From Betaproteobacteria bacterium (lineage in GTDB: Bacteria > Pseudomonadota > Gammaproteobacteria > Burkholderiales > JACQAP01), in NCBI GenBank assembly GCA_016194905.1, contig JACQAP010000026.1, positions 92,418 through 156,417 on the forward strand: a stretch of 64,000 nucleotides of DNA. Direction: 5' to 3'. Below, in pieces: positions 47,251 to 49,880 of the stretch. Under the pieces are notes generated by a model. The model ran no database searches. It saw only the letters and a list, made by a program, of their open reading frames with translations, and was not told the origin of the DNA. Within the stretch, counting starts at the first letter, position 1. Every line of letters begins with the position of its first letter. The position numbers were made by a program, and so were the translations under genes.

Positions 47251-47272
47251 GGAATAAATCTCCTTTGCCGGA

Positions 47273-47302
47273 ATATTAGCACTCGTGACCTAGGAGTGCC
47301 AA
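47273..47302 (-). promoter_or_regulatory. rpoH promoter overlapped by a CIRCE (HrcA) operator
   Basis: At 47276-47302 the plus strand reads TTAGCACTC-N9-GAGTGCCAA, a CIRCE inverted repeat with one departure from the consensus TTAGCACTC-N9-GAGTGCTAA. On the minus strand the same stretch holds TTGGCA (47297-47302), an 18-base spacer, and TAATAT (47273-47278): a sigma-70-type promoter reading into rpoH. The operator covers both hexamers, so HrcA bound here should block initiation. The predicted transcript start lies about 16 bases before the rpoH ATG. Confidence 0.9.
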
Positions 47303-47341
47303 CCGTCCCGAAAGTTCTCTGCGATCGTGCTCAAAGATCCA

Positions 47342-48247
47342 CTACCGTGGCTCGATCAGCCATAAGTGACGACTCACTGATAGCCACGCTCCCAGCCATC
47401 CCAGCGCGGCTGAAAAAGCCAACAATGTCATCGTGTCACTGATGCCCGGCCATTCCAGTTTGAAGGCGGTGCCATACAGTCCGGTCAAGTCCGCAAGCTG
47501 AATATTCAGGACCAGGACCGCCAATGCGACGATCGCCCACGCAGCGAATCCGCCCGCCAGGCCCTGCAATGCGCCGAAATACAGAAACGGCCGGCGGATG
47601 AAAGGGTTCGTAGCGCCTATCAGCTTGGATACCTCGATTTCGTCACGGCGGGTGAGAATCTGCAGCCGTATGGTGTTGAAGGTCACGGCTACCAGCGCGA
47701 CCGCCAGCAGTACGGCCAGCAGGGTGACCAGCATTCTGCCGACGTTCAATGCCGCATCGAGCCGGCGTGCCCATTCTGCATCCAGCTGCACATGCTCGAC
47801 CTTTGGCCATTTCCGCGCTTGATCGCGCAGCGCTTCCAGGGTGGCGGGATCATTATTGCGCGCAGTCACGACGAACGCGTCCGGGAGGGGATTGCGGCCG
47901 AGATTCGCAAGGACATCGGCGAGACCGGCACTGCGCTTGAGGCGGGCGAAAGCCTGGTCTCGAGTGATGAACTCGACCCGGCCGATTTCGGCATTGGACT
48001 TCAATCGCTGTTCCACAGCCGCAACTTCGGCCGTGCCGGCATCGATAGTCATGAAGATGCTTACCTGAGGATCACTGGATAGCTGCCGCGAGAACGTTTG
48101 CAAATTGTTCAGCCCGAGATAGAAGCCGGCGGGCAACGACAGGGCAATGCCGATCACCGCTACGTTCAGCGCCGAGGCAACCGGCTGGCGCGCCAGTCTC
48201 GCCAGGCTTTCGCGCAGGGTGTCGAGATGAACCAGAAGCCAGTTCAT
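47342..48247 (-). CDS. ftsX: Cell division protein FtsX
   Basis: A 301-residue permease-like partner of FtsE. Four membrane helices (about 26-46, 170-195, 220-245, 270-290) and a periplasmic loop (about 50-165) that in other bacteria activates EnvC and amidases at the septum. TFNTIRLQILTRRDEIEVSKLIGAT and FIRRPFLYFGALQGLAGG are conserved. It overlaps ftsE by four bases. An EnvC-like protein is encoded at the left edge of the window. Confidence 0.95.
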   Translation of the reverse strand: MNWLLVHLDTLRESLARLARQPVASALNVAVIGIALSLPAGFYLGLNNLQTFSRQLSSDPQVSIFMTIDAGTAEVAAVEQRLKSNAEIGRVEFITRDQAFARLKRSAGLADVLANLGRNPLPDAFVVTARNNDPATLEALRDQARKWPKVEHVQLDAEWARRLDAALNVGRMLVTLLAVLLAVALVAVTFNTIRLQILTRRDEIEVSKLIGATNPFIRRPFLYFGALQGLAGGFAAWAIVALAVLVLNIQLADLTGLYGTAFKLEWPGISDTMTLLAFSAALGWLGAWLSVSRHLWLIEPR

Positions 48248-48897
48248 GTGGCAACCCTGCCGTGGTCGAGATGCAGAACGCGGGGACCGAGGCGCTCGAT
48301 CATGTCCTCATCATGCGTAGCAATGACCACGGTCACGCCGACTTGGTTGAATAACTTGAACATGCCGATGATTTCCTCGGCATAAGCCGTGTCGAGATTG
48401 CCGGTAGGTTCGTCGGCCAGCAGGATGGCGGGCCGATTGACGACGGCACGAGCTATGCACAGGCGTTGTTGCTCCCCGCCGGACAAAGTGATCGGTTTGG
48501 CCTTTTCGCGTCCAAGCAGACCGACTTTGTCGAGGGCAGCCCGGGTGCGTCTGGCGATCTCTCCGCGCGGAAAGCCGGTAATCGCCAGCGGCAATGCTAC
48601 ATTCTCGAACACGCTGCGGTCGAACAACAGCTTGTGATCCTGGAAAATCAGCCCGAAGTTGCGGCGGAAAAAGGGAATGATGCCCGGCTTCATTGCCGAC
48701 ACGTTCTGGCCATTGATGATGACGCCGCCCGCCGTCGGCATTTCGATGGCGGTGATCAGTTTCAGCAGTGTGCTTTTCCCCGCGCCGGAGTGGCCGGTGA
48801 TGAAGACCATCTCTCCGGATTCAACCGAGAAGGTCACGTCGCGCAACGCTTCAAAGCCGCCGGCATAGCGCTTGGAGACATGGCTGACCTGGATCAT
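48244..48897 (-). CDS. ftsE: Cell division ATP-binding protein FtsE
   Basis: A 217-residue ABC ATPase that energises FtsX. Walker A GHSGAGKST, the signature LSGGEQQRLCIARA and Walker B ILLADEPTGNLD are all present, with the FtsE-type sequence MIQVSHVSKRYAGG at the start. ATG 48897 is used since the family begins here. It follows ftsY by 23 bases. Confidence 0.96.
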   Translation of the reverse strand: MIQVSHVSKRYAGGFEALRDVTFSVESGEMVFITGHSGAGKSTLLKLITAIEMPTAGGVIINGQNVSAMKPGIIPFFRRNFGLIFQDHKLLFDRSVFENVALPLAITGFPRGEIARRTRAALDKVGLLGREKAKPITLSGGEQQRLCIARAVVNRPAILLADEPTGNLDTAYAEEIIGMFKLFNQVGVTVVIATHDEDMIERLGPRVLHLDHGRVAT

Positions 48898-48920
48898 CGA
48901 GCCGCGGGTTGCCGCTGAAC

Positions 48921-49880
48921 TCACTCGAACAAAGCCTCCACGAATTCTCCGGCAGAGAATGGACGCAGATCCTCGACGTCCTCGCCGACGCCGATGAAAC
49001 GCAAAGGAATCGGCTTGTGACGCGCAATGGCGGCTATTGCGCCGCCCTTGGCGGTGCCGTCCAGCTTCGTGAGTACGATGCCGGTAACGCCAAGCGCTGC
49101 ATCAAACGCCCTCACTTGGTTGACGGCGTTCTGCCCATTGTTGGCGTCGAGCACCAGCAGCACTTCATGCGGCGCATCGGGGATGGCCTTGGCGATCACT
49201 CGCTTGACCTTGCGAATCTCCTCCATCAGATGCAACTGCGTCGGCAGGCGCCCGGCCGTATCCGCGATGACCACATCGATTTCCTTCGCTTTTGCCGACT
49301 GGATTGCATCGAACACGACCGCGGCGGTATCGCCGCCTTCCTGTGCAATGACGGTGACGTTGTTGCGCTCGCCCCATACTTTCAACTGTTCGCGCGCGGC
49401 GGCGCGGAATGTATCTCCAGCTGCCAGAAGAACGGATTTGCCCTCCGCCTGGAATAGTCGCGTGAGCTTGCCGATCGAAGTCGTTTTTCCGGCGCCGTTT
49501 ACCCCTGCGATCAGGATAACGAATGGCGAGGCCCGGGAAATGTCGAGCGGTTGCTCCAGCGGCTTCAGCAACTCGAGCAACGTCTGTTTAAGAACTTCGT
49601 GAATTTGCGAAGCGTCCGTCAAACCTTGCGCCCGGACTTGGGCGCGCGCCGCGCCGAGCAGGTGCGCGGTTGCTTCGACGCCCACGTCGCAGGCAAGCAG
49701 GACTGACTCCATCTCCTCGAACAGCGCTTCGTCTATCCTGCGGCCGGCGCCGAACACAGCCGCGAGCTGCGCACCCAGTCGCGCCCGGGTGGCCGCCAGC
49801 CCCTGCCGTAATTTCGTCGCCCAGCCCGTACTGCCGGCTTGCGCGATTGCGCTCTTGTCACGCTTCAGGAAACTTAACAT
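48921..49880 (-). CDS. ftsY: Signal recognition particle receptor FtsY
   Basis: A 319-residue SRP GTPase that brings ribosomes to the membrane. The NG domain has the P-loop GVNGAGKTTSIGKL, DTFRAAAREQL, DTAGRLPTQ, TKLDGTAKGG and GVGEDVEDLRPF. The acidic A domain of enterobacterial FtsY is almost absent; the protein starts with a short basic segment (MLSFLKRDK), as is common outside gammaproteobacteria. It leads the ftsY-ftsE-ftsX unit, divergent from the M16 peptidase genes across 83 bases. Confidence 0.97.
   Translation of the reverse strand: MLSFLKRDKSAIAQAGSTGWATKLRQGLAATRARLGAQLAAVFGAGRRIDEALFEEMESVLLACDVGVEATAHLLGAARAQVRAQGLTDASQIHEVLKQTLLELLKPLEQPLDISRASPFVILIAGVNGAGKTTSIGKLTRLFQAEGKSVLLAAGDTFRAAAREQLKVWGERNNVTVIAQEGGDTAAVVFDAIQSAKAKEIDVVIADTAGRLPTQLHLMEEIRKVKRVIAKAIPDAPHEVLLVLDANNGQNAVNQVRAFDAALGVTGIVLTKLDGTAKGGAIAAIARHKPIPLRFIGVGEDVEDLRPFSAGEFVEALFE

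Follow-up and report, generated by a model that had tools for sequence, protein, structure and literature searches.

Heat-shock control is usually taught as a matter of either sigma-32, as in E. coli, or the repressor HrcA, as in Bacillus. The region upstream of rpoH in the stretch of betaproteobacterial DNA analyzed here (64,000 nucleotides, hereafter the window) raises the question of whether HrcA controls the gene for sigma-32 itself and, if so, through which promoters. The preliminary description of this DNA had placed a CIRCE inverted repeat, one base off consensus, at the rpoH promoter, and both points were confirmed. The plus strand at 47276-47302 reads TTAGCACTC-GTGACCTAG-GAGTGCCAA, with a single mismatch to the consensus TTAGCACTC-N9-GAGTGCTAA, so that 17 of 18 positions match. 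Read in the sense of rpoH, from 47302 to 47276 on the minus strand, the order is TTGGCACTC-CTAGGTCAC-GAGTGCTAA, followed by TATTCCGGCAAAGGAGATTTATTCC-ATG, which puts the repeat 25 bp from the gene. It is the sole CIRCE in the window, and 100 dinucleotide shuffles of the window contained no match at up to three mismatches. All features of the locus are listed in the table.

Features of the rpoH locus in the window (positions count from the first nucleotide of the window)
Feature	Position	Strand	Remark
rpoH, sigma-32, 286 aa	46390..47250	-	TIGR02392 equivalog, E 8e-123; sole rpoH of the genome
rpoH Shine-Dalgarno sequence AAGGAG	47260..47265	-	within the 25 bp between CIRCE and ATG
Extended -10 TG-C-TAATAT	47273..47281	-	TGCTAA comes from the right arm of CIRCE; TAT is outside it
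CIRCE operator (predicted HrcA site)	47276..47302	-	TTGGCACTC-N9-GAGTGCTAA in rpoH sense, 17/18
Sigma-E-type -10 TCCTA	47291..47295	-	N16 after GAACTT; overlaps CIRCE left arm and spacer
Sigma-70-type -35 TTGGCA	47297..47302	-	inside the CIRCE left arm
Sigma-E-type -35 GAACTT	47312..47317	-	exact match; enriched in relatives
ftsX	47342..48247	-	upstream of rpoH, same orientation
ftsE	48244..48924	-	upstream of rpoH, same orientation

A scan of the assembly (4.75 Mb in 36 contigs) revealed a single hrcA gene (TIGR00331, E 1e-99), and the genome thus encodes the repressor that the proposed control would need. Near-consensus CIRCE sites occur twice in the genome, at rpoH and 45 bp before the ATG of groES. 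As they were found only there, the predicted HrcA regulon consists of rpoH and groESL. A third CIRCE-like match (C19:84538), with three mismatches and no heat-shock gene among the listed ORFs around it, was judged to be due to chance. Autoregulation of hrcA was also considered and rejected, there being no CIRCE near this gene at up to three mismatches. The genome furthermore contains rpoE-rseA-rseB. Upstream of rpoE (L149:1740-2339) only a weak candidate promoter, GAACTA-N18-TCTGA, was found, which makes sigma-E autoregulation uncertain.

The geometry at rpoH had been called unusually clean. This does not hold, as the same layout is the norm in the group: a CIRCE matching at least 15 of 18 positions precedes rpoH at 105 of 110 betaproteobacterial loci (80 from a scan of named genomes, 29 from a search for relatives, and the window), while composition-shuffled sequences reached at most 14/18. 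One of the five loci scoring below 15 (L117) comes from a genome without hrcA. The site is also kept in all three congeners, at 17, 17, and 15 of 18 positions, with changed spacer and flanks. Laboratory betaproteobacteria such as Comamonas testosteroni share the layout. Across the GTDB class, the site was compared with the presence of hrcA in two samples. In a hand-picked one, 56 genomes had hrcA, and 53 of these carried a CIRCE before rpoH, vs. none of the seven genomes without hrcA. Because this sample was hand-picked, a second one was taken from 79 consecutive, unselected genomes (G142-G221 less G198), of which 76 yielded an rpoH. Here, the site was present in 51 of 55 genomes with hrcA and in two of 21 without (Fisher p 4e-12, a value that ignores kinship, though most of these genomes belong to different families; related genomes do not count as independent observations). 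Four genomes with hrcA lacking the site and two without hrcA carrying it are the exceptions, although absence of hrcA from a draft genome can reflect an assembly gap. As judged from these sequence comparisons, the link between HrcA and rpoH is ordinary in betaproteobacteria, and CIRCE tracks hrcA throughout the class. The proposal of HrcA control of rpoH is hence supported by the presence of hrcA, by conservation, and by co-loss, with the qualification that this layout is far more widespread than the preliminary description suggested.

Several individual loci deserve mention. In two genomes in which hrcA was not detected, L185 (G067) and L250 (G181), a decayed rpoH CIRCE lies beside an intact GAACTT-N16/17-TCTTA (N16 in L185). 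These appear to be relics after loss of hrcA, and the decayed site of L185 is as expected if the operator decays once its repressor is lost. L286 (G196) has a 17/18 site and no hrcA in its draft genome, and represents either an exception or a gap in the draft assembly. Upstream of rpoH in L208 (G008), two CIRCE-like repeats are arranged in tandem (TTAGCAGTC...GAGTGCTAA-AATTT-TTAGCACTC...GAGTGCTAA), and two genomes, G159 (L249, L273) and G030 (L193, L205), possess two rpoH-like genes with a CIRCE-like site at one copy only.

The preliminary description had the repeat covering both hexamers of a sigma-70-type promoter. The hexamers are present, TTGGCA (47302-47297) and TAATAT (47278-47273) being separated by N18 and the latter preceded by TG at 47281-47280. 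The -35 element lies entirely within the repeat; of the -10 element, just the TAA half does, with TAT immediately outside. The promoter scores 9/12 in addition to the TG extension, and is the only sigma-70-like match within 2 kb (0.6 expected), although TAATAT agrees with TATAAT at only four of six positions. Comparison with groES helps to judge it. Directly after the CIRCE, N-A-T is found at 92 of 102 distinct betaproteobacterial rpoH sites vs. three of 29 groES sites (p 4e-16). Together with the TGC-TAA of the operator it forms a TGC-TAANAT -10 element, in which TAA is common to both. In the relatives, this extended -10 takes the form TGCTAANAT, N18 from a left-arm TTRGCA. Departures by one base are likewise distributed differently, with 57 in the left arm (to G) and four in the right arm (to C) at rpoH (n = 207), and two and seven, respectively, at groES (n = 29). 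As they are one-sided, the TAA of the right arm appears to be fixed at rpoH, where it would serve as part of the -10 element. The A-to-G departure in the left arm turns TTAGCA into TTGGCA, which is nearer to TTGACA, and the lone departure of the window is this same change. The -35 side may be under selection, or may merely be free to vary.

That one base departs from consensus could also be read as a sign that the rpoH CIRCE is a leftover that no longer functions. This reading seems very improbable to us, given that hrcA is intact, that the three congeners keep the site despite changed spacer and flanks, and that the departure is of a common type on the side favorable to the -35 element; moreover, the relics in L185 and L250 are more decayed, although L286 retains 17/18.

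The preliminary description assumed one promoter under the CIRCE. It recognized the sigma-70-type hexamers but missed a second, candidate promoter of the sigma-E type, which overlaps the left arm. Many rpoH loci have GAACTT upstream of the CIRCE, followed at N16 by TCNNA. Pairs of GAACTT and a TCTNA -10 at a distance of N16 were scored and counted at 9 of 10 or better. The GAACTT-N16-TCCTA of the window, with an exact -35 and a -10 one base off, reaches 9. Such pairs were found at 35 of 102 betaproteobacterial rpoH sites (0.6 in shuffled flanks, maximum 3), at 29 of 51 sites of other class members (0.5, maximum 3), and at 32 of 53 sites of the unselected sample (0.55, maximum 3), and at none of the 29 groES CIRCE sites of relatives. 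The strongest point for a sigma-E promoter is that its -10 element shifts along the operator in register with the -35, thereby keeping the 16-nt spacing. When GAACTT starts 15 nt before the CIRCE, spacer position 3 is A in 38 of 46 cases; at 13 nt the spacer begins with TC in 6/6, and at 11 nt position 7 is A in 8/9.

Nevertheless, HrcA might control the sigma-70 promoter only, with GAACTT in this genome being a chance occurrence or a decayed site. The weaker -10 of the window, TCCTA rather than TCTNA, would fit such an explanation, as would some Burkholderiales relatives without a recognizable GAACTT (e.g., L041, L053, and L067). However, the window has an exact GAACTT, as do two of the three congeners (G371 and G372), in which the -10 reads TCTTA. 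The register coupling, the class-wide enrichment of the pair, and the presence of rpoE in the genome also speak against this explanation, which we regard as rather unlikely.

The operator before groES resembles that of rpoH in overlapping or abutting a promoter, yet the promoter is of another type. In most relatives, a sigma-32-like promoter (CTTGAA...CCCYATTA) precedes and abuts the groES CIRCE, a TTGAA/TTGCA/TTGTA core being present before 25 of 29 sites, whereas N-A-T is rare and GAACTT absent. Given these different promoter types, the sigma factor gated by HrcA would be sigma-32 at groESL, but both sigma-70 and sigma-E at rpoH.

A further possibility is that the CIRCE functions chiefly at the RNA level, as a hairpin within a longer transcript, arising by read-through from ftsX or from an upstream promoter, and affects message stability and not initiation. 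The 91-bp gap between ftsX and rpoH contains no terminator-like site, so read-through into rpoH is possible, and the palindromic CIRCE would be part of any such message. Still, we consider this improbable, since the conserved N-A-T and the GAACTT register are explained by promoters and not by a hairpin, the departures are one-sided and promoter-favoring, the site tracks hrcA, and no Rfam family came near its gathering score around rpoH. An RNA thermometer of the E. coli type was likewise set aside: over its first 236 nt, the shorter of the predicted transcripts folds only mildly more stably than shuffled sequences (z -1.8).

All these observations make it probable that the region is a composite promoter-operator, at which HrcA gates the sigma-70 and the sigma-E promoter of rpoH, with the sigma-32-driven groESL being gated by its own CIRCE. 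HrcA bound to the CIRCE would cover the whole -35 and the TAA half of the extended sigma-70 -10 (TGCTAATAT), and also the sigma-E -10 (GAACTT-N16-TCCTA). Transcripts are predicted to start at about 47266 and at 47284-47286, the sigma-E start, near 47285, falling inside the CIRCE spacer. With both promoters covered, rpoH would be held low whichever holoenzyme is available. Titration of HrcA by GroEL is the mechanism of the Bacillus type: heat or misfolded protein would pull GroEL off HrcA and lift repression, whereupon sigma-70 would transcribe rpoH, and envelope stress would bring in further transcription by sigma-E. Sigma-32 would then drive groESL, and rising GroEL would restore HrcA. Steric repression of both promoters, relieved by GroEL titration, is the best supported reading of the locus. 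The sequence elements, their conservation, the positional coupling, and the co-occurrence with hrcA were observed directly; HrcA binding, promoter use, the direction of the effect, and chaperone titration are what we infer from sequence.

Control of rpoH by HrcA and CIRCE is not new, having been proposed previously from comparative genomics. In Geobacter sulfurreducens, whose genome likewise contains hrcA, a CIRCE just upstream of rpoH was predicted in this way (PMC545781), in a report that cites Permina and Gelfand (2003) on the HrcA regulons of beta-, gamma-, and epsilon-proteobacteria. To this site prediction, the present analysis adds the overlap with two predicted promoters, the contrast with groES, and the co-loss with hrcA. 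SigE of Bordetella bronchiseptica transcribes in vitro from the region before rpoH (fam) (PMC3490749), which parallels the candidate sigma-E promoter seen here, except that here the -10 lies inside the CIRCE; HrcA is mentioned neither in that study nor in PMC5343134. No joint description of CIRCE and sigma-E control of rpoH was found in the literature searched, which covered few subscription journals. In most members of the class that possess HrcA, the repressor of one heat-shock system apparently sits on the promoter of the other's master regulator, where it appears to gate the access of the envelope-stress sigma factor to rpoH.

Control of rpoH by sigma-E is itself already known, and the P3 promoter of E. 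coli rpoH has the same layout, with a GAACTT-type -35 and 16-nt spacing; in the window, however, the -10 lies inside a CIRCE, and E. coli, to our knowledge, has no hrcA. We lean slightly towards the view that the composite element is ancestral in the GTDB class Gammaproteobacteria (including betaproteobacteria), with an HrcA operator built from sigma-E (left) and sigma-70 (right) promoter parts and gating both inputs, and that P3 is what remained after loss of hrcA and CIRCE. If so, E. coli would be the derived case, and the circuit could be tested directly in ordinary laboratory betaproteobacteria.
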